From positions 1 through 64,000 of the forward strand of contig CANMTO010000004.1 of the NCBI GenBank assembly GCA_947500755.1: a stretch of 64,000 nucleotides of DNA. The letters run 5' to 3'. The stretch comes from Flavobacteriales bacterium (GTDB taxonomy: Bacteria; Bacteroidota; Bacteroidia; Flavobacteriales_D; Crocinitomicaceae). The position numbers were made by a program, and so were the translations under genes. The notes beneath the pieces were generated by a model. That model was given only the letters and a program-made list of their open reading frames with translations. It made no database searches and was not told where the DNA came from. Shown here piece by piece: positions 11,870 through 38,034 of this stretch (the first letter of the stretch is position 1; every line of letters starts with the position of its first letter).

Positions 11870-14800
11870 TTACTGCCGAATAAATGGCACGCGTTGCAAC
11901 CCTTCGCTTGTTTGGAATTCAAAACTATAAAGGCCAGGTGCTAAGGATTCAATTGCTATAGAAGCACGTTGATTTTCATCCAATACCATTTGCCCGTCCA
12001 TTTTACAACGTCCTTGCAGGTCAATTACTCGATAGGAACAAGGAGCGTGTTCCGCGAAGTAGAAAAGTACTTCCACTGTCGCACCCGAGTTGGGATTCGG
12101 TATCAATCGTATTTCGTGACCTAACCAGCGTGATGAAGCCATGGACTCCACTAATGTTATCGCTCCGTTAAAGTTCCAACCTTTCAGTTTTAATATTTGA
12201 AAGTCCGCCTCGTAACGTACGCTGTCGCCCCATAACGTGCTTGGAAGTAAGCGCCAAGTTCCTGCTTGTTCAATCAGCAAGGAAGGATCAGCAATTGGTT
12301 TAATACGGTCAACGATCCAAGATACATCTAACGAACCTTCGTGCGTATTGAAGTATAGCGTTTGGCTCCAAGGGTTTACAGGGATTATGGGATTGGCTTG
12401 GTGCTGACCAATTTCGATGTTGCCAACCGTCAATCCATGGATACTTAATCCGTTCCATAGGAAGTGCGCATGATCAGGATGGGTCACAATACTTGTGTCG
12501 CGAAGTTCTTCGGCACGCACCTTGGGATCATAAATAATTATAGTATCCTTCTCAATCAGGTATCGTTCAAGTACATATCCCGGTGCTACCAACGTAAGCG
12601 TGTAACTTCCTTCCGGTAAGGCCAGGTGCTGGTGTGAATGCAATTCGGAATAAAGGTCGCCATCTAGGTATAAACTTGCATTAATCGATTCTCGATTGAT
12701 GATTTGTATTTTGCGAAGGCTTTGAGAATAATCCGTGTAAAGCCATCTATCTGTTATGAATACCGTATCGTTTCCGTTGAAAACCATGAATTCAAAGTAG
12801 TTCATTCCATGGGAAAGGTTAACCGGGATTTTTTGTGTGGTGGCAGGGTAGTTCTTGAAGTTCATCCCTCCGTCTGTGCTGAACCAAAACCCTTGCACCT
12901 TATCCGTCTCAACGTTCAAATAGGGAGACATGTTATCAGAACCATGGCTTACACGGAAAACGATTGGTGGTCTTTGGTCAATCATCGGGATTCCCATTTT
13001 ATCTGAAAAGCTGACCTGATTCAGGGAGAATTTTGTAGGAAAATAGCCAGAACGGATTATCAGCATCGAATCGCTAGCACATGGCGTAAATTCTTGAAGA
13101 ATATCTACCGCGCCGTTGCCGTGTGTCTGATCAAGATAAATCCAATCCTCGGTATTTTTATTAAAAATGGATGCACCATTTACCGGAGAGGCCACGGCTT
13201 GAAGGAACAAAGCCGCTTGATTTCCTCCGTTGGCCACTACAGGACCTAAAATTCCACCCGTTGCACTGGCACTTACCTTAAAGTAGTAGTTATCACTGAT
13301 CACAGACTTTTCAGCATTACTTGAAATGGTGGTGCTTTGCTGGAAGCTGATTGACGCAATGTTAAAATAACGGTTTTCGACAGTCCATTTGTAGGTCGCC
13401 CCAGGAGTTAGGGCTGGAAAACCTTGACCGTTTATTTGATTTCCACTGATTTCAATGGTATTTCCAACTTGTTGGTAGCAATTTCCATTAAGTTTGTAGA
13501 GCCTCACCCTATATCCTTTAATGTTGTTGTGCTTTATCCAGGTAAAGGTAGGAGTGGTGGTGCTGATTGTAGGGATACCGTTAGTGATGCCTGGACTCAC
13601 GATTTCAGGAATAGCTCGTACCCAACCGCGTGTCGTAGGGTACGCGCTTGTAGCCTTCCACTTTCCGGCCGTTAGCTTTAGGGAAATGGGGTAATTCAAG
13701 TGCTGCGAAACGTTTGATCCCCAATTTTGTTGAAACATATTCAAGGTGTAGTTGCTCACATTTTGACTGTAACCTGGAGTGAAATTTCGAATCATGGCAA
13801 CATGTCCAGCTGAATTGGGATCTGCACGCATGAAGGTAATCATATCGTTCATTTTCGGCGCCGAAGTCGAAAGACCGTTGGTCATTTGACGAAGTCCTTT
13901 TCGGTTACCTGTTACATCGAAATAGTCCTTTCCATCTCCTCCCTGAATATTGATGCGATATCGTGTAAAATAAAAACGAGCAGGTAATTCCACACATTGC
14001 CATCCATAACTCCAACCGCTTTGGCTTTGAATCGTTGTACTGGCTTTATTGTAAATTCCGTTTTCGCAACCTCCGTTTTTGTAAATCGGTACATTGTTCA
14101 CCGCACCAAGCCGTGTCCCGAAGGGATCTACACCCCCTGGCACATACAAGCAATTTAGGGGGAGCATAGAGGGTTTGGGTATCGTCGTAAATTGCCTTTT
14201 AAAGCAGGCGATAGGAAGATTATTGGCATCGAAAGCAGTAACTTTCCAACTGTAAAGGGTTTTGTAGAGTAAGGCGGTGGAACACACCAATTTCGCATAA
14301 CTCGCACTTACTGGTGCTGTTACTGTATTTACCAGGTTACCGTTTATGACGATTGCAACTTCGGTATTGTTTGCGTTGCTGACTTTGAACAATTCAACGT
14401 TATAATATGCTGCAGCGATTCCTTCTTCATGTTGCCATTCAAATACAGGTAAATTATCGACCCATTCTGCTTTGTGCATAGGGTTGGAATTCACCCCAAG
14501 ACGATTGCAGCCAGTACAATTTGTAAGCAATGGCGCCATTCCGGTACCTACCAAATGAAAAATGAACGGATTCTCATCTAAATCGTTGGTGCTGAAAAAA
14601 ATGGTACCGTTGGTTATCCCCAAAACGCTCGGCGTTAAGGTAATGGTGCGGGGTATGGAGGCACCTGGAGCTAATGTACCGGAGAGTGCTGGCGTTAATG
14701 AAAACTGGGGATTCGTACTCTGCAGGTTGGATAAATTCAAATTCGCTGCACCAATGTTCTTGATGATTATTGGAACAGCAAGGGAACTTCCCATCGTGCA

Positions 14801-16195
14801 TGCGCCCAAATTGATGACCGATCCTGTGGCGAAATTGCTTGAATTGTAGATAACTTGAATCTCTGGTGTGGCAGCAAAAGGATTAATCCCATAACCATTA
14901 AGCACCCAATTTTGAGGACTATTTGGATCGTTTGACTGAACTTGTAGATTTCCGTTGGAGAACCCTCCCACCACAGGGGTGAACGAGAAATGTAGGTATT
15001 GTCCAGTACCCGGGGCTAAATTCAGTGGGAGTGCTGCAGGAATCCAAGAAAACGTAGATCCTGTGACTACAACGTTACTAATACTTAATGGAGCTTGGCC
15101 GTTGTTTACTATATATACCGAATCAACCAAGAAGCTACCAAGAAGGGTAGAATCCACGGTAACAGTATCTAAAACAGGTATTATTTGTGCATGGTGTTGG
15201 AGCTGCAGTTGAGAGGCCACTCCGATACCGCTTAAATTGAACCCGTAACTCGCTTCATCCCAGTCGTTCGAAGTTATGGTGATGTTATCACTTAAATTCC
15301 CGGAAAATTGAGGGGTTAAACTCACGTTCACAAAGACGGTGTCCAGCGGCGCGACGGTTGAAGGAGGATTATTCGTTATCTGCCATTGAGTTCCTTGGGT
15401 AAGGGCAATGGAGGAAATGGATAGGTTACCGGTACCCTGATTGGATATTTCGAAGGTTTTTGTTACGGTGTTTCCAATCCCAACTGTTCCGTAGTTTGAG
15501 GTGGAGTTTATGGCTTGATTCACATTTTGTTGCGTTACTTTGATATCTGGAATTTCTGGACAATACGAAATTCGTTTCACAAGAATTCCGTTAGGACCAG
15601 AAACACTCAAGGCGGTGATTTCACGTTGGGTGAAGCGGATTTTTTTGAAGGGGGTAGTCGCAGAAATAATCAATCGTCCGTCGTCTGCGTTTCCTGAATA
15701 GGCTTTAATAGTTTTCGTACTATTCACGAAGTAAGTACCACCAGCCGTTCCCGTTGGAACCCCAGGTTGATACGTGTAGGTAACTCCGTTAGTGAGAAGT
15801 TGTCCGTTGGATAATTTCGGATAAATGCGTTGAATTTGTTCCTCCCCATCGGTATTGTTGTTGATCGCCCCGAAATCCAACATTACTCCGTATACCAGTC
15901 CTGTAAAAGTGATTTCTACCACAACCGAGTCTAAATTTACGTTGTTATCCTTTCCTACCCATAGAGAATTTGTCCCGTAAGGATAAAAGTTGGGTCCGTT
16001 TCCGGCTGTTTTTTGTATAAATACATTAAAGGCCATGTTAAACGTTGCAGAGGAGTAGGTATAACTGCTTACGTTAGAACCTACTGTACCCAAGTTCGAA
16101 TTGTTCAATGTGAAATTTGAGGTACCGCAAGGCAGCTGTGCCTTGACGCTTTGCAGTGTAACGATTACGAGTGTGAAAAAAAGAAAATTACGCAT
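11870..16195 (-). CDS. Giant secreted CHAP-domain protein with choice-of-anchor D repeats and T9SS tail
   Basis: About 1,440 residues. Signal peptide MRNFLFFTLVIVTLQSVKAQ. After an N-terminal beta domain (~30-230) come three ASH / choice-of-anchor D type modules (~230-570; for example GNTVTKTFEISNQGTGNLSI). A CHAP amidase/peptidase domain lies near residues 690-860: Cys in YGWQCVELPARFYF, His in SAGHVAMIRNF and a downstream QQNW. CHAP domains usually cleave peptidoglycan amide bonds, so a surface or secreted lysin-like role is possible. Fibronectin-like segments and a T9SS type A tail (RLIPNPNSGATVEVLF, then APGLYSFEF) follow. The start is 4 nt after the PhoD stop; an in-frame TTG at 16216 would overlap PhoD. 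Likely co-transcribed with PhoD. Confidence 0.75.
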   Translation of the reverse strand: MRNFLFFTLVIVTLQSVKAQLPCGTSNFTLNNSNLGTVGSNVSSYTYSSATFNMAFNVFIQKTAGNGPNFYPYGTNSLWVGKDNNVNLDSVVVEITFTGLVYGVMLDFGAINNNTDGEEQIQRIYPKLSNGQLLTNGVTYTYQPGVPTGTAGGTYFVNSTKTIKAYSGNADDGRLIISATTPFKKIRFTQREITALSVSGPNGILVKRISYCPEIPDIKVTQQNVNQAINSTSNYGTVGIGNTVTKTFEISNQGTGNLSISSIALTQGTQWQITNNPPSTVAPLDTVFVNVSLTPQFSGNLSDNITITSNDWDEASYGFNLSGIGVASQLQLQHHAQIIPVLDTVTVDSTLLGSFLVDSVYIVNNGQAPLSISNVVVTGSTFSWIPAALPLNLAPGTGQYLHFSFTPVVGGFSNGNLQVQSNDPNSPQNWVLNGYGINPFAATPEIQVIYNSSNFATGSVINLGACTMGSSLAVPIIIKNIGAANLNLSNLQSTNPQFSLTPALSGTLAPGASIPRTITLTPSVLGITNGTIFFSTNDLDENPFIFHLVGTGMAPLLTNCTGCNRLGVNSNPMHKAEWVDNLPVFEWQHEEGIAAAYYNVELFKVSNANNTEVAIVINGNLVNTVTAPVSASYAKLVCSTALLYKTLYSWKVTAFDANNLPIACFKRQFTTIPKPSMLPLNCLYVPGGVDPFGTRLGAVNNVPIYKNGGCENGIYNKASTTIQSQSGWSYGWQCVELPARFYFTRYRINIQGGDGKDYFDVTGNRKGLRQMTNGLSTSAPKMNDMITFMRADPNSAGHVAMIRNFTPGYSQNVSNYTLNMFQQNWGSNVSQHLNYPISLKLTAGKWKATSAYPTTRGWVRAIPEIVSPGITNGIPTISTTTPTFTWIKHNNIKGYRVRLYKLNGNCYQQVGNTIEISGNQINGQGFPALTPGATYKWTVENRYFNIASISFQQSTTISSNAEKSVISDNYYFKVSASATGGILGPVVANGGNQAALFLQAVASPVNGASIFNKNTEDWIYLDQTHGNGAVDILQEFTPCASDSMLIIRSGYFPTKFSLNQVSFSDKMGIPMIDQRPPIVFRVSHGSDNMSPYLNVETDKVQGFWFSTDGGMNFKNYPATTQKIPVNLSHGMNYFEFMVFNGNDTVFITDRWLYTDYSQSLRKIQIINRESINASLYLDGDLYSELHSHQHLALPEGSYTLTLVAPGYVLERYLIEKDTIIIYDPKVRAEELRDTSIVTHPDHAHFLWNGLSIHGLTVGNIEIGQHQANPIIPVNPWSQTLYFNTHEGSLDVSWIVDRIKPIADPSLLIEQAGTWRLLPSTLWGDSVRYEADFQILKLKGWNFNGAITLVESMASSRWLGHEIRLIPNPNSGATVEVLFYFAEHAPCSYRVIDLQGRCKMDGQMVLDENQRASIAIESLAPGLYSFEFQTSEGLQRVPFIRQ

Positions 16196-16199
16196 TCCT

Positions 16200-18011
16200 T
16201 TAATTTGTTTTTTCAAAGCGAAAGGATTGCATTTTTCCTTTCTCTATGGTTATAGTATATGATCCCGGCATCAATTTTTGCACATCTAATGAAACGATGG
16301 TTAAGCCATTTTCCCAATCTGATACCTCGATCGATACTTGCTGTTGTTTGCCATCCGCAGAATAAATGTGAATATCTTTAGGGGATAAATTTATGGTTTG
16401 CAATTTGATAAAATCATTACTTGGATTTGGATACACGCCAATAACTTTAGGTGTTGTTGTTTCTGCCAATGCCACATAAAATCTACTGCAGGGTCCAAGT
16501 AATTCCTGATTGAATGCACCATGTCCTGTTGCTGCGGTATTCGCTAGTATTAGTTCATTGGATCCATTGTTGGTAACGTAGGATTTTACGCATGTGGAAC
16601 CAGGGTTCATTTGATCTATTGTATTCACATTATACCAGTCTCCTTGAACTCGTTGCTCAGTAATATCAACCAACATAAAACCGCGTTTTGTTAATTCCAC
16701 ATACTTAATATCTGGATTTTGCAGTGTGATTAAACCAGATAAGTTGATAGGTACTCCAGAAGAGGTTACGCTTGGGGTTACCATTTCAACGCCAACAGGA
16801 GTATTTCCATTTTTAAGGTTGACCGCCCAACTTGTATGAATATCTCCGGTTAATACCACCATGTTATCGATGTTATTTGAAGTTAAGTGATTAAATAATT
16901 TTTGGCGCTCCGCAGGATATCCATCCCAAGAATCCGTATTGATGGGTGTGCCAAATATTTCTATTGCACCAATCATCACCTGGTTGCCAATTATCTTCCA
17001 AGGTTGAGCGGTGCTGCTAAGTTCATTCTTAAACCAATTGAATTGCGCTGGACCAAGTATGGTGCGCGTTGTATCATTGAATCCGGGATCGTTTGCACCG
17101 ACTTGCTGGTCTCTACCTTCTAGGCGGGTATCGAGCATGATGATTTTCGCTAAATCACCGAGCTCAAACGTTCTGAAAATTTCTTGATTACCCGGCGCCT
17201 TTGGACGAATTGGGATCCATTCAAAATAAGCTTTTTTTCCCGCCGACATTCGTTGTGCCCAAGGGCCTTCATTCGCTTGATGGTTATCCGCACCACCCGG
17301 ATAGGAATCATTGGCGGTTTCATGGTCATCCCAAATACATATCCACGGAAAATTTTGATGCAGTTTACGAAGGGCATAATCTAGGCGGTATGAATTATAA
17401 CGCAGGCGATAGTCGTTCAACTCAGTGATTTCTTCAGCAGGTTGCCACGTTCGATCTACATTATTATTTGGGGAAAATCCCTGACTTTCATATTCATATA
17501 TGTAATCTCCAAGCATAAGAACTGCATCTACATCGTTTCGGTTAGCAATGGCTTCGTACGAGTTGAAATACCCAGACTCTAAACTTGCGCAGGACACCAC
17601 CGCTAAACGCATGTTATCTACTGCCCCAAGGGGAAGTGTTTTTGTTCTACCCACTAAACTGTAGGCTCCATTATGCTCAAATTCATAGTAGTAAAATGTA
17701 TTGGGATTAAGGCCCGTAACATCAATTTTTACGGTAAAATCTTTGGTGGAATCAGTTGAATAAGTCCCACTTGCCACTATATTATTAAATTGATTGTCGG
17801 TAGCCACGTGATAGCTTCCATTCAGGGTAAGGCCAAAATCTACGGGGGTTATTCTTGTCCAAATAATTACACGATCACTTAATGGATCACCTGAAGCCAC
17901 ACCGTGATAGAATGGGGCGATGCACTCCGGAGCACTTATGCTACTTTGTGCAAAAGCAGAAGTTAACAAGGCGCTAATGACCAACAAATAAAGGTAAAAG
18001 AAAGACTTCAT
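16200..18011 (-). CDS. phoD: Secreted PhoD-family alkaline phosphatase with T9SS tail
   Basis: 603 residues with signal peptide MKSFFYLYLLVISALLTSAFAQ. The PhoD N-terminal domain is clear (FYHGVASGDPLSDRVIIWTR), followed by metal-site motifs of the metallophosphatase core: VMLGDYIYEYE, CIWDDHETANDSYPGG and VVLTGDIHTSWAVNL. PhoD enzymes are Ca/Fe phosphomonoesterases or phosphodiesterases that release phosphate from organic compounds including nucleotides. The C-terminus (VYPNPSNDFIKL, then PGSYTITIEKG) is a T9SS type A sorting domain. The gene follows the two 5'-nucleotidase genes after 133 bp containing its own likely promoter, and leads directly into the CHAP gene. Confidence 0.9.
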   Translation of the reverse strand: MKSFFYLYLLVISALLTSAFAQSSISAPECIAPFYHGVASGDPLSDRVIIWTRITPVDFGLTLNGSYHVATDNQFNNIVASGTYSTDSTKDFTVKIDVTGLNPNTFYYYEFEHNGAYSLVGRTKTLPLGAVDNMRLAVVSCASLESGYFNSYEAIANRNDVDAVLMLGDYIYEYESQGFSPNNNVDRTWQPAEEITELNDYRLRYNSYRLDYALRKLHQNFPWICIWDDHETANDSYPGGADNHQANEGPWAQRMSAGKKAYFEWIPIRPKAPGNQEIFRTFELGDLAKIIMLDTRLEGRDQQVGANDPGFNDTTRTILGPAQFNWFKNELSSTAQPWKIIGNQVMIGAIEIFGTPINTDSWDGYPAERQKLFNHLTSNNIDNMVVLTGDIHTSWAVNLKNGNTPVGVEMVTPSVTSSGVPINLSGLITLQNPDIKYVELTKRGFMLVDITEQRVQGDWYNVNTIDQMNPGSTCVKSYVTNNGSNELILANTAATGHGAFNQELLGPCSRFYVALAETTTPKVIGVYPNPSNDFIKLQTINLSPKDIHIYSADGKQQQVSIEVSDWENGLTIVSLDVQKLMPGSYTITIEKGKMQSFRFEKTN

Positions 18012-18144: not shown

Positions 18145-19044
18145 TTATTGCACCAAAAGTGCTTGATGCTTGAACATCCCGCGTTGGAAATCAATGTCGA
18201 TGCGTCCTAGAAATAGTCCTGCCCAGCCCGTTTGATTAATCAAGACGGGTTTTTTATTGGCATTTTCCATGACTAATGGGTTTTCCATAAAGGTATGAGT
18301 GTGCCCTCCAAGAATCAAATGAATATTCGCGGTCTGCGCAGCCAATACCTTGTCAGAAATTTGTGTACTTGAATAGTCAAATCCCAAATGTGAAAGACAA
18401 ACCACCAAATCACACCCTAAATCACTCAGCAATTGGGCCATTGAATTGGCGCGCTCTATGGGGTCTATGTAGTTCATTCCGGCATATAAAGAAGCAGGGG
18501 AGAGGCCGTCTAAATTCACCCCAATACCGAAAAAACCAATCTTTATTCCATCTCGTCTCAGGATGTGATACGGTAAGGTTTGATTCGCTAAGGTGGTATT
18601 CTTTAAATCATAATTGCTGCAGACAAAGGGGAAATTCGCATGGCGTTGTGCATTCTTGAATCCTTCCATTCCAATGTCAAAATCATGATTCCCCATCGTA
18701 GCCACATCGTATTGCATGGCCGACATCAGTTTCATCTCTAATACGCCATGGTATCGATTAAAGTACGGTGTCCCTTGAAAAATATCTCCCGAATCCACTA
18801 AAAGAACGTTTTCTTCATCCCTTCGTATTTGCTCAATTAAGGCCGCTCGTTTTGCCACGCCACCCATACCAGGGTATTTAGCATGATTAAGCGGGAAGGG
18901 GTCAATGTTCGAATGGGTATCGTTCGTGTGCAGTATGGTAAGCTTTTTACCCTTGCGCTGCGCCGAGGTGCGAAGCTCGAAGGAGCTTGTTAGTGCTCCT
19001 AAACTCGTTAATCCAGCTAATCCTACAAAAGCTCTTCGATTCAT
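18145..19044 (-). CDS. 5'-nucleotidase, separate catalytic metallophosphatase subunit
   Basis: 299 residues corresponding to the N-terminal half of UshA-type 5'-nucleotidases. Metal-binding motifs are intact: TILHTNDTHSNIDPF, LLVDSGDIFQG, TMGNHDFDIG and ILGGHTHTF. The start MNRRAFVGLAGLTSLGAL resembles a Tat-type (RR) signal peptide. The family hydrolyses nucleoside 5'-phosphates or UDP-sugars, but complete enzymes also need a C-terminal substrate-binding domain. That domain is encoded by the gene just upstream, which overlaps this one by 4 bp, so the two probably act as a complex. The order (binding half first, catalytic half second) is reversed relative to the fused protein. Confidence 0.88.
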   Translation of the reverse strand: MNRRAFVGLAGLTSLGALTSSFELRTSAQRKGKKLTILHTNDTHSNIDPFPLNHAKYPGMGGVAKRAALIEQIRRDEENVLLVDSGDIFQGTPYFNRYHGVLEMKLMSAMQYDVATMGNHDFDIGMEGFKNAQRHANFPFVCSNYDLKNTTLANQTLPYHILRRDGIKIGFFGIGVNLDGLSPASLYAGMNYIDPIERANSMAQLLSDLGCDLVVCLSHLGFDYSSTQISDKVLAAQTANIHLILGGHTHTFMENPLVMENANKKPVLINQTGWAGLFLGRIDIDFQRGMFKHQALLVQ

Positions 19045-19748
19045 GGAATAAAGCGTTTTTCTGAATTACTAACTAGGGTTCCCTGCCGTTTAACTTCATC
19101 GATAAATACATCGCGCAGATTCTTCGGCTTTAGTTGGAATGATTCTGGCGTTAAGAAAAAAGTCATTTTATCGCCACCTTGTGCTAAATAATCCGAGGTA
19201 ATCACCCAAAAATGGGTGTGCGTTTCATTTAAGCCTTGAATCATGAGCTTGCCTTTTTCAAATCGAGCGTTCGCAAGCGGAACTCCTTTGGGTTGATTTT
19301 TCATGAAGGTCTCAATTGCCTCGATACGTGAAATCGGCAAACGAACCCATGCTACCGAATTGTCGAAGGGCATAAGTTTGAATAAATCACCAACCGTGAT
19401 GGGACCCTTGTTTAGGCTCGCACGTAAACCGCCGGCATTTAATATACAAATAACAGGTTCAGATAAGCGAACGGTTTCTGTTTCTTGCAGTAATAAGGCA
19501 TCAGTAGCCCAATTCATGAGGTTTGAACTGGGAAATACCACCTCGAAACTGGTGTCAGCCGTGCCTAGGATTTCTCCCATTTGAAGGGCTAATGAATCGC
19601 GGTACGGGACAATGAATTGCTCGATTTGTTGCACTGCTTGTACACTCGTATCAACACGAATATTCTTTGAAGCCGACGAAACATTTACTTGGTAGGAACA
19701 ACTCAGGGCTCCTGCAACAAGAAGTATACAGAGAACCAGCTTAAACAT
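19041..19748 (-). CDS. 5'-nucleotidase C-terminal (substrate-binding) domain lipoprotein
   Basis: 235 residues matching the 5'-nucleotidase C-terminal domain, with NLMNWATDALLLQ, NAGGLRASLNKGPITVGDLF, LMPFDNSVAWVRLPI and DYLAQGGDKMTFF. The start MFKLVLCILLVAGALSC carries a lipobox (GALSC), so this half is predicted to be membrane-anchored while the catalytic half has its own signal. No metallophosphatase motifs occur here. Its ATG overlaps the endonuclease stop by one base (TAATG) and its end overlaps the catalytic-half gene by 4 bp, so translation of all three is probably coupled. Confidence 0.85.
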   Translation of the reverse strand: MFKLVLCILLVAGALSCSYQVNVSSASKNIRVDTSVQAVQQIEQFIVPYRDSLALQMGEILGTADTSFEVVFPSSNLMNWATDALLLQETETVRLSEPVICILNAGGLRASLNKGPITVGDLFKLMPFDNSVAWVRLPISRIEAIETFMKNQPKGVPLANARFEKGKLMIQGLNETHTHFWVITSDYLAQGGDKMTFFLTPESFQLKPKNLRDVFIDEVKRQGTLVSNSEKRFIP

Positions 19749-22015
19749 TACTCTTTTATAAAGCTTCCGCGGGCTGCTCCAAGGTTGGTACGCACCTCAA
19801 TCAGGTATTTACCAGATTTTAAATCGTTTCCGTTCACAATAAGTACGTCCTCATTAATGCCTTGAGAAGCCTTAACAATACGACCACTTAAATCGGTAAT
19901 GGTAAATCCAGTAATGGCAAGACCATTTACTTGGGCATATACGTTGCCGTTAGTGGGGACCGGGAATACCGATAAATTAGCGGCTAATTGATCTTCAATC
20001 CCAACGTTGCATGATGTTTCTAAGTAAGACATGTTGTTAAAGTTTACGTGGCATGCAAAATTCACAGAATCGATGTATGGATTCCGGTTGCCTTGAACGC
20101 TGAAGATATATTCCTGACGAGCAATTTCATAAGAATCCGGGAGGTCAGCAAAATGCCATGTTTTTAAGGTGGCTTGATCTTGGTTTGCTGCAATTCCCCA
20201 ATTCAAGTTGTTTTGCATGTTGTAACATGTTGCTTGATAAAAAATCGAACGAGCAGCATTTCCTTTTTGTGCATCTCTGGGTTCATAACACATTTGATTG
20301 CCATTATATCCAACGCTTCCTTCTAAAAACGTATAAAGCACATTCCCTGTAATTTCCATCAATGGGAGATTACTTCTATAAGAATTCGCATTCGCTAAGT
20401 TAGTAGGGTAGAGGTTGTGTTGGTCTGTATATTCTGGTTGCTCTGGATTATCGCATGGGAAGGTAGGCATCCAAGAATGGCAAAACGTGTGCTCGCGAGA
20501 ATAACCAGTTGCGGTCCAATCAAATGGATCGTTAAACACCTTGTTCTCACCGGTATAAACACAGGTTACAAAGGATTGTCCGTTGGTTGTATCACACACC
20601 TCAAATTGGTTCATTACCGTTTGCTTGTAATTGAAATATGAAATGAAGGTATGTGGATTGATTAATGCTGAAAGATCACTCACCAAGGTAGGAGCGGTAG
20701 AATTAATACTTGAATAGTAGTTCCCTATGTTTAATCCAGTCGTTGTTACGTTCCCTGTGGCGGGAGTTGTTGTTTTGTAATTCTCAAATCCAGCAGGACC
20801 ATTAAAGGCATATACTGAAAAATAATACGCTTGATTGGCGCGAACACCGCGTGGCACAAACGAAACAGAACTTCCAGTGTAAGCTACTTTAGCATTGCCA
20901 ATAATATCTCCGCGTTGGTAACTCGTTCCATCCATAGGAGTTCCCGAAACCGGTGCATTTTTCGACCACAATACGAGGTATTTCTCGGCCCCAGCACCTG
21001 CGGTATATGCCCCAGCTAAGGTATACGCCTCAATATTAGCAAAGGTTAAGTTTGTTGGGTTTGAGGTAGGTTCAGTAGCCAAGTTATCAAGACCAACAGC
21101 TAACAAGGTAATCACGTACGGATTTTCATCATTATCATTGTTAGCAATGCTTAGCGTCGCAGTTCTTGAACCATTTCCTAAAGGTGCAAAATTCAAGGTG
21201 TAATTCTGTGAACCTAATCCAGCAACAGTGGAAGCATTTAAACTGGTAGTGAATTCTGCTGCATTCGCACCAGAAAGCGTTGCCCCTGAAATCGTTAGGT
21301 TTTGTACACCACTATTTTCTATGGTAATGGTATTGTTTGCCGTATTTCCAATCACGTAACTGGTGTTGTTTAATGCAGTGGTACCATTGATCTTAACGTT
21401 GATTTCAGTTTGTGGAGCAACATAAGGGATAATGTCTGAGGTACTTCTTGGAACAAGTTGATAATTCGCATTAAATTGTCCCATTAAACCGGTGATGGTA
21501 ACTGGTCCTGCTAGAATGGCGCTTCCGTCAATATTCGTAGTTCCGTTGATTCGAACATCCAAGGTGTTGGCTCCATTGGTGATTTGTACCGTACTGTTTC
21601 CGGCAGCAAAGTTTCCACTTTGAACAAAAGTTACATTTTCAATCCGAACAAGCTGCGCTTCCAAGGCTTCTCCTGCGCTTGTAATCGGAATTACTTGGGG
21701 TACATTTGGAGTAACAGGTCCATGATCCGTAAAGCTGTTCGTTGGCGATAATTCTAACAAGCCACTGAAGTCAAATAAAACACCGGTAGCGGTTACAGAA
21801 TCCCCCGTAGTTAAACTTGAAAGCGTGTTCCCATAAATAGCGATACCTGCAGTACCGTCTTGTAAGTAACGAATTGAACCAAGCTCTGTCCCATTAGAGA
21901 CCACTCCTTTTACGGTTACCGTGGCACCAATAGACATGTTTCGAACTTGCTGAATGGTTTGTGCGCCAAGGGTTAAGGTGCATAATGCCGCAACGAGGGT
22001 AAAGATTTTCTTCAT
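19748..22015 (-). CDS. Secreted endonuclease I family nuclease with T9SS tail
   Basis: 755 residues; signal peptide MKKIFTLVAALCTLTLGAQ. Residues ~20-200 form an OB-fold-like nucleic-acid-binding region (VTVKGVVSNGTELGSIRYL, GDSVTATGVLF). Residues ~205-320 form a choice-of-anchor D module, and a fibronectin-like region follows. The nuclease core shows endonuclease I signatures: GYSREHTFCHSWMP and YTDQHNLYPTNLANANSYRS (the DxHNL..P...N..R pattern). The C-terminus (LSVFPVPTNGNVYAQVNG, then SGKYLIEV) is a T9SS type A domain. The likely role is cutting extracellular DNA or RNA at the cell surface. It starts 2 nt after the TonB-dependent receptor stop, so the two belong to one transcript. Confidence 0.88.
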   Translation of the reverse strand: MKKIFTLVAALCTLTLGAQTIQQVRNMSIGATVTVKGVVSNGTELGSIRYLQDGTAGIAIYGNTLSSLTTGDSVTATGVLFDFSGLLELSPTNSFTDHGPVTPNVPQVIPITSAGEALEAQLVRIENVTFVQSGNFAAGNSTVQITNGANTLDVRINGTTNIDGSAILAGPVTITGLMGQFNANYQLVPRSTSDIIPYVAPQTEINVKINGTTALNNTSYVIGNTANNTITIENSGVQNLTISGATLSGANAAEFTTSLNASTVAGLGSQNYTLNFAPLGNGSRTATLSIANNDNDENPYVITLLAVGLDNLATEPTSNPTNLTFANIEAYTLAGAYTAGAGAEKYLVLWSKNAPVSGTPMDGTSYQRGDIIGNAKVAYTGSSVSFVPRGVRANQAYYFSVYAFNGPAGFENYKTTTPATGNVTTTGLNIGNYYSSINSTAPTLVSDLSALINPHTFISYFNYKQTVMNQFEVCDTTNGQSFVTCVYTGENKVFNDPFDWTATGYSREHTFCHSWMPTFPCDNPEQPEYTDQHNLYPTNLANANSYRSNLPLMEITGNVLYTFLEGSVGYNGNQMCYEPRDAQKGNAARSIFYQATCYNMQNNLNWGIAANQDQATLKTWHFADLPDSYEIARQEYIFSVQGNRNPYIDSVNFACHVNFNNMSYLETSCNVGIEDQLAANLSVFPVPTNGNVYAQVNGLAITGFTITDLSGRIVKASQGINEDVLIVNGNDLKSGKYLIEVRTNLGAARGSFIKE

Positions 22016-22017
22016 AA

Positions 22018-24774
22018 TTAGAATTGATAAGACAAAGATACATTAAATCGCAACCCTTGACCAAACATCACCGCGGATGAGGTTGCATCGAAATTCTGAT
22101 TGCTTCCGTTCATGTTGTTGGAAGCATCCGAGATAAAGGCTTTATTGAGTAGGTTGATAATGTTTCCTGACAAGATGAGTGCATCTTCTTTGAGTTTGAA
22201 TCGATACCCGGCATATAAATTAATCAAGGTGTATGAAGGCATTTTCCAAGACTCTCTTCCTCCGTTTGCCCCTTGTAAGGAGAAGGGATTGAAATCTGAA
22301 AAATAGCGGTCGAAATATTGGATTTGACCTTTGAAGTATAAATTCCTGATGGGCTCGTATCTGACAGTTGCCGACAAGGCAGTTTGTGCGGCATCTCCCA
22401 CATGAACACCCTTAGCATCAAAGGTATATTCCAATGAATCATATTGCGGAATGACAATGGTTTTACTGGAATTCCAGAACCAATCACCCATCGAGAACAT
22501 GAATTCGGAAGATATTTTCTTGGAGATTTCCCAAGCCACATCAATCTCACCGCCCACGTGCACCGCGTCCATGCCGTTAATATTCACACGTATGGTTTCT
22601 GTTGGATCATTGGGATCGGGAACTGCCACTCCATATGGGAAGGGTTTGTTCTTCCAATTGGTTGCATAGGCATTGATATTGACACCAAAAGTGCGGGTTG
22701 CATATGAAAATCCTTGTTCAAGTGCTAGGATTTTCTCATTGTTAATCACCCCAAAAAACTTGTTGTAATTATTGTCAATTACATTGGAAAACATCGGAGT
22801 TCGGTTAAGGTAACCAATGTTTATGAACACACTTGCAAATTCACTTAACTTGACGCTTGCACCCGTTTTAAAGGTAAATCCGGGTATGAATTTCCATGGT
22901 GTCTTCACGTAATCTACCCCCTCAGAATAGCTGTGGTAGGTTTGACCGTTGTATGTTAATGTATCCCCGTATCCAAACTGTAAAATGGTGTCCCCAAGAT
23001 TCAGTTCGCGTTTTTGAAAGTAATCAATCCCTCGGTACCCATTACCAATCCCCGTAAGGTTAACAAATGCGCTCACCGTTTTGGTCTCATAGGAAACTTG
23101 AGAAAATCCTCCAAGCCACGATACTAGGCCATCGCGGTTCGCGTTGAACAGATTCTTTGCGATTTTATCTCCGACACGTTTCATGGGACTAGCCGCATTC
23201 TTGTCGGATAAATCCACGTAATAATCGCCTCCGAGCAAATCTGTTACTTCTTGATAGTGCGAGCCTTGATAGTATCGAGCGTCTAATCCTCCTGATATTT
23301 CAAATCCTTTGTTGATTTCATAATTGGCTTGACCCAAATAACCTACCCAAAAGTGATTATTTACGCTGGATAAAATGATTTGTGAACTCTTAATTTCTGT
23401 GGGAGAATATTGCGCATCGATGTTCGGTGAACCAAACAGTGGATTCACCTGATTGGTCTCCACCATTTGGTCCCAATCAATGTTCATGTTGGAATCTCTA
23501 ATGATGGCAGATGAATTGTAAATCGCAGTGCCCCCACCACGACCAATAGACAGGTATGCGAGATTTGAGATGGAAAGTTTTTTATTGACCTTCCAAAAAT
23601 CTTTAAGGGTGATTTGAGGTTTGTTATAGTAATTCAAACGTTCATTTAATATTTCTTTTTTACCGTCTACCGTGCGATACCCCCAATGTTGATTATATTG
23701 TAATCCTAGGTCTGTTAAAAAGGAATTTGTATCTACTTCTACTCCGAGTTCTTTTGCTTGATCTTCACTCCAATATTGAATGGGCTGACGAAACGACCGC
23801 TGACCGTGTTGCTGCGGCGCAGAGAACCCTGAGAGGGTTAGTAAATGTTTGTTGAATTGCTTCGAAATTTTTAAGTAGCCAAAAAATCCTTGACTCGGAG
23901 TACCATCCACCCATCCTGTGGCTTGCTTGTAACTGGCAGCAGCAGTAAGTCCCCAACCTCCTTTTAGAATTCCTGTATTATAGGCAATGGAGGTGCGCAT
24001 TAAGTTTCCCGTACCATACTCTTGCTTTAAACTTCCGCCCTTTTTATTTCCAATTCCTTGAGTTATAATGTTAATGGTTCCACCAATCGATGGCATAGCG
24101 ATTTTAGTGGCACCCAATCCACGCTGTACTTGCATCGTCGCAGTAATCGCATCTAATCCAAACCAATTGGACCAATAAACCCAGCCATTTTCCATGTCGT
24201 TCACCGGAACACCGTCGATCATTACCCCAACGTTACGTTGGTCAAACCCACGCACATTAATCCGTGCATCACCATCTCCACCACCAGACTGGGTGGCATA
24301 AACCCCCGCAGTTCCGTTGAGCAACATTGGTAAATCCCGCGAGCCCAACTCCTCTTGAATTTTTTGCGCACTAATCCGAGTGACTGCAATCGGAACTGGA
24401 CCATCTTTGATGATGTTTCCAATCACACGTACCTCATCAAATTCAAGACTACCCGACATGCTCAGATTGACGATATGATCAGGTTTGGAGATTTTTACAT
24501 CCTTTACAATGGTATCAAATGAAATCAAGGTTACTGTAAATCGGTAATTTCCGAAGGGGATATCCCGAAATTCAAACGCCCCGTTGGATTCCGACAGTGC
24601 ACGACCGGCTACAGCACCTGTGTTTAGGGATTTGAGTTCTATTTTTGCTCCACTAACCGTTTGGCTTGAGGAACCTTCAGTGACTTTCCCAGTTATTCGG
24701 GCTTTCGCAGTTTGTCCATAGGATATGGAACAAATTATTCCTAAAAATAAGCCAAGGAGGAATGAACGTTTCAT
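22018..24774 (-). CDS. TonB-dependent receptor of the nuclease/nucleotidase locus
   Basis: 918 residues: signal peptide MKRSFLLGLFLGIICSISYGQ, carboxypeptidase-like regulatory domain (~22-110; ARITGKVTEGSSSQTVSGAK), plug (~120-240; ARINVRGFDQRNVGVMIDGV, later GGTINIITQG) and a long beta-barrel ending in an aromatic residue (FNVSLSYQF). Such receptors import substrates across the outer membrane using TonB energy. There is no SusD partner, so it is not a classic SusCD glycan importer. Gene context (nuclease, 5'-nucleotidase, phosphatase) suggests a nucleic-acid-derived substrate, which is an inference. A terminator hairpin abuts its start codon. Confidence 0.9.
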   Translation of the reverse strand: MKRSFLLGLFLGIICSISYGQTAKARITGKVTEGSSSQTVSGAKIELKSLNTGAVAGRALSESNGAFEFRDIPFGNYRFTVTLISFDTIVKDVKISKPDHIVNLSMSGSLEFDEVRVIGNIIKDGPVPIAVTRISAQKIQEELGSRDLPMLLNGTAGVYATQSGGGDGDARINVRGFDQRNVGVMIDGVPVNDMENGWVYWSNWFGLDAITATMQVQRGLGATKIAMPSIGGTINIITQGIGNKKGGSLKQEYGTGNLMRTSIAYNTGILKGGWGLTAAASYKQATGWVDGTPSQGFFGYLKISKQFNKHLLTLSGFSAPQQHGQRSFRQPIQYWSEDQAKELGVEVDTNSFLTDLGLQYNQHWGYRTVDGKKEILNERLNYYNKPQITLKDFWKVNKKLSISNLAYLSIGRGGGTAIYNSSAIIRDSNMNIDWDQMVETNQVNPLFGSPNIDAQYSPTEIKSSQIILSSVNNHFWVGYLGQANYEINKGFEISGGLDARYYQGSHYQEVTDLLGGDYYVDLSDKNAASPMKRVGDKIAKNLFNANRDGLVSWLGGFSQVSYETKTVSAFVNLTGIGNGYRGIDYFQKRELNLGDTILQFGYGDTLTYNGQTYHSYSEGVDYVKTPWKFIPGFTFKTGASVKLSEFASVFINIGYLNRTPMFSNVIDNNYNKFFGVINNEKILALEQGFSYATRTFGVNINAYATNWKNKPFPYGVAVPDPNDPTETIRVNINGMDAVHVGGEIDVAWEISKKISSEFMFSMGDWFWNSSKTIVIPQYDSLEYTFDAKGVHVGDAAQTALSATVRYEPIRNLYFKGQIQYFDRYFSDFNPFSLQGANGGRESWKMPSYTLINLYAGYRFKLKEDALILSGNIINLLNKAFISDASNNMNGSNQNFDATSSAVMFGQGLRFNVSLSYQF

Positions 24775-24776
24775 AG

Positions 24777-24800
24777 AAAAAAAATCCCGCCGAAGCGGGA
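24777..24800 (-). terminator. Hairpin-T8 terminator ending 2 nt before the TonB-receptor start codon
   Basis: On the minus strand the stem is TCCCGC/GCGGGA with a TTCG loop (the very stable cUUCGg tetraloop), followed by eight T, then CT and the ATG at 24774. It begins 5 nt after the stop of the lamin-tail gene. No TAnnTTTG element lies between the hairpin and the start, so receptor expression seems to need read-through, which suggests an attenuator. Confidence 0.85.
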
Positions 24801-24805
24801 ATACA

Positions 24806-25864
24806 TTATCGAATGATTACTTTTCGAATCTCTGACTTACCGTCTTTGGTGGTAATGTTTACGAAATACACACCACGAGACGCATCAATTTGAAAAACCA
24901 CCAACTCTTGGTTGCTTATTTCCTTAGTTGAAAGTACTTGTCCGAAGGCATTCAGCACTTGAAAACGCTTAATGTTAGCAGCATTCTTAATATATAACGT
25001 ACCTGAAGATGGGTTAGGGTAGATGGAGTACGCCAACTCATCCATGTCGTTTATGGTAGCCGGATTGCATTGGCAATCGTGCGATCCGAGTGAATTCCAA
25101 TTCCCGTCAAGGATTGGGTTGCCGCTTTGACTTAAAACAGTATCACCATTAATGTCCAATCTAACAATGACAGCAGGGATGGTGTCCCACTCTAATAAGG
25201 GATCAAAAAATGCAACTTGATTTATTACTCCTTTCTGAATGCTTGCCTTTCGGATCATGGAATGATCTTTTGTAGCATATTCTCCTTGACCATTATTGAA
25301 CGGAAAAACCGTGGTCCATGCACCATCATTACCAGCAGAAGAACCCGTTTGATTCGCAGGATTCTCTCCGATTTTAGCAAAAATATCAACCAACGCAAAT
25401 CCAGGTACATTTGCTGGACTGATTACCGTAGCAGCATTCGCAGGAAGTGTTCCTTTCGCCAAAACAACGGCATCGTTACCGTTCCAATAAAACGCATTCG
25501 ATGTGTTGTATACAGGACTGTAAAATCCGTCTGCACGTGCTTGTAAGGAATCCCAAATTGGAGCTTCTTGTCCGGTTCCGGCAGTATCTAATTTCTCTAA
25601 CACAGCAACATAAACATCATGTGCTTGTACCGTTCCCGTTAATTGAACTGCATTCGCAACCGTTGCGGTACTAGAACCGTTGGAATAACGAACTACGAAA
25701 TACCCATTTAGATTAATCGCCTGATTCGTTGGGTTATAGATTTCAAGAGCCTTATTATTCGACCATCCTTCTACATATTCTGAAATAAATAGGTCGCTAC
25801 AGTTCGTTTGGCTGAACGATAGCATGGTGATTGAAAGGGTGAAAAGTGTAAAAAGTTGTTTCAT
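24806..25864 (-). CDS. Secreted lamin-tail-domain protein with T9SS tail
   Basis: 352 residues from ATG 25864 with signal peptide MKQLFTLFTLSITMLSFSQ. Residues ~20-170 form a lamin-tail (LTD) domain: DLFISEYVEGWSNNKALEIY, NLNGYFVVRYSNG and AFYWNGNDAVVLAKG. In bacteria LTD domains are often attached to secreted nucleases or phosphatases; here the domain stands alone just upstream of a receptor and nuclease. The C-terminus (YSIYPNPSSGTLYIKN, then RGVYFVNITTKDG) is a T9SS type A sorting domain. An in-frame TTG at 25885 overlaps the -7 element, so the ATG is preferred. It probably serves as a surface binding protein; its ligand is unknown. Confidence 0.82.
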   Translation of the reverse strand: MKQLFTLFTLSITMLSFSQTNCSDLFISEYVEGWSNNKALEIYNPTNQAINLNGYFVVRYSNGSSTATVANAVQLTGTVQAHDVYVAVLEKLDTAGTGQEAPIWDSLQARADGFYSPVYNTSNAFYWNGNDAVVLAKGTLPANAATVISPANVPGFALVDIFAKIGENPANQTGSSAGNDGAWTTVFPFNNGQGEYATKDHSMIRKASIQKGVINQVAFFDPLLEWDTIPAVIVRLDINGDTVLSQSGNPILDGNWNSLGSHDCQCNPATINDMDELAYSIYPNPSSGTLYIKNAANIKRFQVLNAFGQVLSTKEISNQELVVFQIDASRGVYFVNITTKDGKSEIRKVIIR

Positions 25865-25882
25865 AACATGATATTTATTGGA

Positions 25883-25890
25883 CAAAAATA
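25883..25890 (-). promoter_or_regulatory. -7 promoter element of the lamin-tail gene
   Basis: TATTTTTG on the minus strand is a full match to TAnnTTTG and ends 18 nt before ATG 25864. It is the best promoter candidate for the whole receptor-nuclease-nucleotidase row. Confidence 0.55.
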
Positions 25891-25987
25891 ATGGGTTTTT
25901 TCGAATTTAGCGCAGGAATGGAAGGTTACCATTTTGTTAATTTCAACAATGAGCGGAAATATATTAAATTAGCGTCAAATAAAGTTC

Positions 25988-37989: not shown

Positions 37990-38014
37990 AGCCCTGCGCA
38001 AGCGGGGCTTTTTT
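37990..38014 (+). terminator. pckA terminator
   Basis: Stem AGCCCTGC/GCGGGGCT (one G-U pair) closed by a GCAA tetraloop, then a T-run. The T-run merges into the -7 element of cysD. Confidence 0.85.
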
Positions 38015-38022
38015 TATTTTTG
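38015..38022 (+). promoter_or_regulatory. -7 promoter element of cysDN
   Basis: TATTTTTG, a full TAnnTTTG match, begins at the end of the pckA terminator T-run and lies 12 nt before the TTG start of cysD. Confidence 0.45.
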
Positions 38023-38034
38023 TAAAAAAACCAA

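Follow-up and report, generated by a model that had tools for sequence, protein, structure and literature searches.

The window, a stretch of 64,000 nucleotides, belongs to a genome that, among named relatives, is closest to Crocinitomicaceae/Cryomorphaceae MAGs within the Flavobacteriales. On its minus strand lies a row of genes headed by one for a secreted lamin-tail-domain (LTD) protein with a type IX secretion (T9SS) sorting tail (gene 1, 24806..25864; Pfam LTD 2.4e-13, Por_Secre_tail 4.3e-10). Gene 2 (22018..24774) codes for a TonB-dependent receptor (Plug 7.5e-14, CarbopepD_reg_2 3.3e-11), gene 3 (19748..22015) for a secreted nuclease of the endonuclease I family with DUF5689 and a T9SS tail (Endonuclease_1 4.9e-21), gene 4 (19041..19748) for a protein with a 5'-nucleotidase C-terminal domain (5_nucleotid_C 8.4e-16), and gene 5 (18145..19044) for a metallophosphoesterase of the 5'-nucleotidase type (Metallophos 2e-19, UshA/NadN-like NCBIfam matches). 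Gene 6 (16200..18011), a PhoD-like phosphatase with a T9SS tail (PhoD 4.6e-103), is found on the same strand 133 nt past gene 5 and likely belongs to the operon. Judged by its gene families, the operon probably serves DNA/organic-phosphate scavenging. The 5'-nucleotidase is split between two minus-strand genes (18145-19748), with the C-terminal half first and a 4-nt overlap, and a very large secreted protein (~1440 aa; 11870-16216, minus) is encoded by a gene that overlaps the PhoD gene at its end and is possibly part of the same operon.

The LTD open reading frame was listed from a TTG at 25885; we took the ATG at 25864 as the start instead, since the signal peptide begins there and this start is conserved. 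In our reading the protein carries a signal peptide. Its AlphaFold model (pLDDT 91) resembles solved T9SS CTDs at the C-terminus, and the model also has weak matches to lamin Ig folds. The signal peptide, the LTD fold, and the type IX secretion tail make it a plausible candidate for a surface binding protein; no SusD domain was found in it by Pfam. The arrangement resembles SusCD/PusCD and the TonB systems induced by low phosphate (PMC8115612), where a TonB receptor stands beside a surface partner and phosphatases or nucleases, and differs from SusCD/PusCD in that the partner is an LTD protein encoded 5' of the receptor, not a SusD lipoprotein. In F. johnsoniae, low phosphate induces TonB receptors and also extracellular nucleases that combine LTD and endonuclease I domains (PMC8115612); these may belong to a locus other than the LTD-TonB operon.

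Between the LTD and TonB genes the minus strand contains a stem-loop, TCCCGC-TTCG-GCGGGA (24785..24800), of 6 bp with five G-C pairs and a cUUCGg loop (-9.7 kcal/mol; hairpin probability in context 0.95). It is followed by eight T (24777..24784), the putative U-tract, then by CT and the TonB ATG at 24774, so that the T-run ends 2 nt before the start codon. The LTD stop codon TAA (24808-24806) is separated from the stem by only 5 nt. The first-pass annotation had described this stem, loop, and T-run between the LTD and receptor genes, and had placed the end of the run 2 nt before the ATG; its coordinates and description are exact. The hairpin has the sequence features of an intrinsic terminator, a G+C-rich stem-loop directly before a U-tract and 3' of a stop codon. 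The whole gap folds at -10.5 kcal/mol on the minus strand, and the plus strand also folds at -10.5 kcal/mol (z-score -2.4).

A scan of 18 kb for terminator-like elements ranked this hairpin first, as the sole match with five G-C pairs, in a total of 20 matches that was near the shuffled value of 16.7. Background rates were taken from 464 kb of the same genome, sampled as stretches: a stricter scan gave 2 matches in 600 shuffled post-stop regions, and a terminator was uncommon between same-strand genes 20-59 nt apart (4 of the 46 pairs). The genome, a 2.56-Mb draft, has two exact copies of the 21-mer TCCCGCTTCGGCGGGATTTTT (reversed control 0); the second follows rpoC, in the gap to a convergent neighbour that we take to be recG. 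The hairpin GCTTCGGC followed by T6 has seven sites in the genome (reversed control 0), all from a few to ~30 nt past a stop codon. By d-score, the window terminator (41.3) outranks the rpoC copy (32.7) and ~80% of the convergent-gene terminators in the same genome, whose median is 29.7. The LTD-TonB terminator is not due to chance, and by sequence the hairpin is a strong canonical terminator, ordinary in its build and notable for its position.

The same junction was analyzed in relatives. All 41 TonB orthologue loci of the family had the order LTD-TonB-nuclease, and 32 of them had a terminator at the LTD-TonB junction. The rate was 0/40 between TonB and the next gene, 1/95 at later junctions of the operon, and 4/25 where other same-strand genes lay 21-130 nt apart. 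These family terminators were slightly weaker than convergent ones (median d-score 22 vs 34, p = 0.004). A wider set, made of the family, named genome contigs, and order-level genomes and reaching Saprospiraceae and Bacteroidales, held 115 non-identical loci, of which 69 had the terminator. Its presence went with gap length (51/54 at gaps of 40-69 nt and 4/29 at gaps of <30 nt), and at the junction after TonB it was found in 3 of 127 cases. The LTD gene was promoter-proximal, with a divergent neighbour, in 91 of 98 loci, and the nuclease followed TonB in 97 of 99. A general habit of TonB genes was ruled out as the explanation: only one of the 18 TonB plug genes of the genome has such a terminator, which is specific to the LTD junction.

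Among the nearest relatives (TonB 91%-97% identical) the stem, the loop, and the T8 are identical and a few nucleotides before the hairpin vary, and every locus of the window's own clade except L095 has the terminator. Between lineages the stems are wholly different (e.g., GGTCG...CGACC vs TCCCGC...GCGGGA), while the position and the U-tract are kept, with quartiles of 14 and 22 nt from the start of the T-tract to the ATG; because detection in relatives required a T-rich tract, its presence there is not independent evidence. In a FastTree phylogeny of TonB proteins, the junction switches between presence and absence of the terminator at least 22 times (three loci whose hairpins are bulged or have a long loop were scored as present by hand); the element has therefore been lost and kept or rebuilt repeatedly. 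It is also dispensable, because ~40% of the wider loci and many species of the same genus are without it. In four genomes of the first set and in L101, L102, and L146 the LTD-TonB gap is 0 or 1 nt, which implies co-transcription of LTD and TonB in those relatives. Gap lengths depend on simple ORF calling with some uncertain start codons (e.g., L062), and in L147, L149, and L156 the called start falls upstream of the hairpin. In one lineage, represented by the loci L039-L042, L101, and L102, where LTD stop and TonB start are 0-1 nt apart, the terminator has gone together with the entire spacer.

The promoter search used an expectation-maximisation model built from 80 divergent starts in this genome. 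With TAnnTTTG as its seed, the model converged on that motif, which is known as the -7 box of Bacteroidota (PMC7366714; PMC9723704). A -7 box of this consensus, TATTTTTG (25883..25890, minus), begins 26 nt 5' of the LTD ATG with a score of 9.5 and is conserved, or nearly so, across most of the clade. By contrast, no sigma-A -7 box was found in the 100 nt 5' of TonB, where the best score of 1.4 is lower than those of 99% of divergent starts and of 90% of operon-internal starts. The first-pass annotation had noted the lack of a promoter motif from the hairpin to the start codon, which is true but nearly automatic for a stretch of 10 nt; the absence over 100 nt is the stronger observation. Across 65 terminator loci, no -7 box was found between hairpin and ATG with the sigma-A model trained on this genome. 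The sensitivity of that model is limited outside the genus, because it was trained on a single genome and only about a third of the LTD genes of the wider set score >=7.5.

Since no promoter is detectable before TonB, the downstream genes would be reached by read-through. The first-pass annotation had left two choices for the receptor mRNA, reading through the hairpin or being leaderless. The lack of a sigma-A box before TonB favours the former. A leaderless TonB mRNA is unlikely, because no -7 box fits it and leaderless transcripts are rare in Flavobacterium psychrophilum (5.5% of the mRNAs with mapped starts; PMC9723704).

The hairpin could instead separate two transcription units, being a full terminator for LTD, with TonB and the genes after it expressed from their own promoter, of an alternative sigma type, that would lie in the last part of the LTD gene or be joined to the T-tract. 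The strength of the terminator agrees with this, and the same genome does have junctions where a terminator is followed by a promoter and then a gene, with the box TATCTTTG in L234 and TAATTTTG in L086. Synonymous variation is slightly lower in the last LTD codons (0.34-0.35 vs 0.47, from few codons), in line with two units, and an alternative-sigma promoter inside the LTD gene is possible, as the promoter tests covered sigma-A boxes only. Against two units stand the lack of a -7 box, both here and between hairpin and ATG elsewhere, and the relatives with gaps of 0 or 1 nt, which have no room for a promoter. A promoter fused to the T-tract (TTTTTTTG) was rejected, because no box exceeded the threshold and TTTG after the T-tract was no commoner than at convergent terminators (13/32 vs 6/20). 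We regard two separate units as unlikely.

Our preferred reading, which we hold to be probable, is that the hairpin acts as a leaky intra-operonic Rho-independent terminator that fixes an excess of LTD over the importer and the enzymes. Transcription would begin at the promoter ahead of the LTD gene, and the majority of RNA polymerases would halt at the U-tract, giving an abundant monocistronic LTD mRNA. A minority would pass the hairpin and produce the mRNA for the TonB receptor, the nuclease, and the nucleotidase. The outcome would be a constant surplus of the secreted LTD protein relative to the importer and the downstream enzymes. Because the terminator recurs at this junction in most of the related Bacteroidota, there is probably more LTD protein than importer and enzymes, and in the window the terminator very probably keeps the latter below the first gene product. 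The anatomy of the junction, the promoter box of gene 1 and its lack before gene 2, and the conserved placement of the terminator are direct observations; from them we infer partial termination, selection on the LTD:importer ratio, and a need for the LTD protein in excess of its partner. Read-through could be very low, because the terminator looks strong and clostridial internal terminators of the poly-U type (type I) stopped >90% of transcription (PMC9045158).

Translation signals also point to more LTD than TonB. At LTD starts, positions -10 to -13 are A-rich, an A stands at -3 in 62% of cases, and folding is weak; TonB starts are preceded by a T-rich stretch. Initiation in F. johnsoniae is favoured by an A at -3 and by low structure (PMC6847099).

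Read-through might, however, be conditional. The first-pass annotation had proposed an attenuator that holds the importer low, and the part of this proposal that places a terminator to be read through before the receptor is supported; the position of this terminator is conserved across Bacteroidota. The conditional part of the proposal would require switching, for example by phosphate, by a trans-acting antiterminator, or by ribosomes masking the hairpin. The operon codes for phosphate- and DNA-scavenging functions, low phosphate induces extracellular nucleases and TonB receptors in F. johnsoniae (PMC8115612), and a ribosome terminating 5 nt before the stem would, by the size of its footprint, mask the 5' arm. 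The distance from stop codon to stem ranges from 5 to 22 nt across relatives, which argues against ribosome masking as a conserved design. The lack of sequence conservation in the stems speaks against a sensor that recognises a specific sequence. No consistent antiterminator pairing was conserved across relatives: while the 3' arm is still to be transcribed, the 5' arm pairs with upstream sequence at a median probability of 0.46 in an inconsistent pattern, and once the terminator hairpin is complete it dominates (median 0.95). An Rfam search gave no element above the gathering score, and a single NusG-domain gene was found, with no paralogue. The conditional part of the proposal is thus not supported: these searches gave no positive evidence for a conditional attenuator, which we consider improbable. 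The same low expectation applies to a Bacteroidota-wide regulated switch in which phosphate, or translation of the LTD stop region, would control LTD-TonB read-through; were it true, the LTD protein would be displayed first, and the importer and nuclease built only on a signal.

Upstream of the LTD gene, ~35 nt 5' of its -7 box, there is a direct repeat TTAACAAAATGGTAAC(C) with 11-bp spacing (25925-25940, minus) that is partly conserved in the clade and resembles an OmpR/PhoB-type site. A Pho box at this place (11-bp repeat TTAACA-N5-GTAACC) was rejected, the pattern occurring 20 times genome-wide and 36 times in the reversed control; among the plus-strand intergenic copies, no phosphate genes were recognised nearby by eye.

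Internal terminators of this kind have been described in ABC-importer operons of Ruminiclostridium cellulolyticum (Wu et al. 2022, PMC9045158), where the hairpin follows the first gene, which encodes an extracellular protein, and precedes those for its transporter. Excess first-gene mRNA was shown there, with efficiencies of 21%-96% that track poly-U length (PMC9045158). The window has the same placement, with the terminator after a promoter-proximal gene whose product is extracellular and before transporter genes. It differs in belonging to Bacteroidota and in joining a type IX-secreted LTD protein to a TonB receptor instead of an ABC importer. The terminators of Wu et al. typically, although not by strict definition, have lower U content and longer stems, a trait that the window hairpin, with its full U8 and 6-bp stem, does not share. 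In the clostridial cip-cel operon (PMC10311766, PMC4423207), an intercistronic hairpin is also reported to set stoichiometry, as is predicted here, and to do so through stem-loop-directed processing and stabilisation. By this precedent, the hairpin could shield the 3' end of the LTD mRNA after downstream cleavage or decay, and termination would be unnecessary. A pure processing hairpin would need no U-tract, and the full U8 of the window, like that of the rpoC terminator, points to termination; we give a processing or stability element very little credence.

The conserved internal terminator is a known kind of element in a place that, by the literature searched, is apparently new, a TonB/T9SS operon of Bacteroidota. 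How the ratio of surface protein to TonB receptor is set inside one Bacteroidota operon is a little-studied question, on which we found no reports in the literature searched. Comparative genomics alone reveals an internal terminator kept or rebuilt at one spot despite sequence turnover, and the lineages that drop it and join the genes offer natural pairs, with and without it, for the stoichiometry hypothesis. Within the conserved LTD-TonB-nuclease operon, the partner made in high abundance is likely to be the LTD protein. Elsewhere in the window, at ~37990-38030 on the plus strand, a terminator has a T-tract that continues directly as a -7 box (TTTTTTTATTTTTG) and may represent a terminator-promoter fusion.
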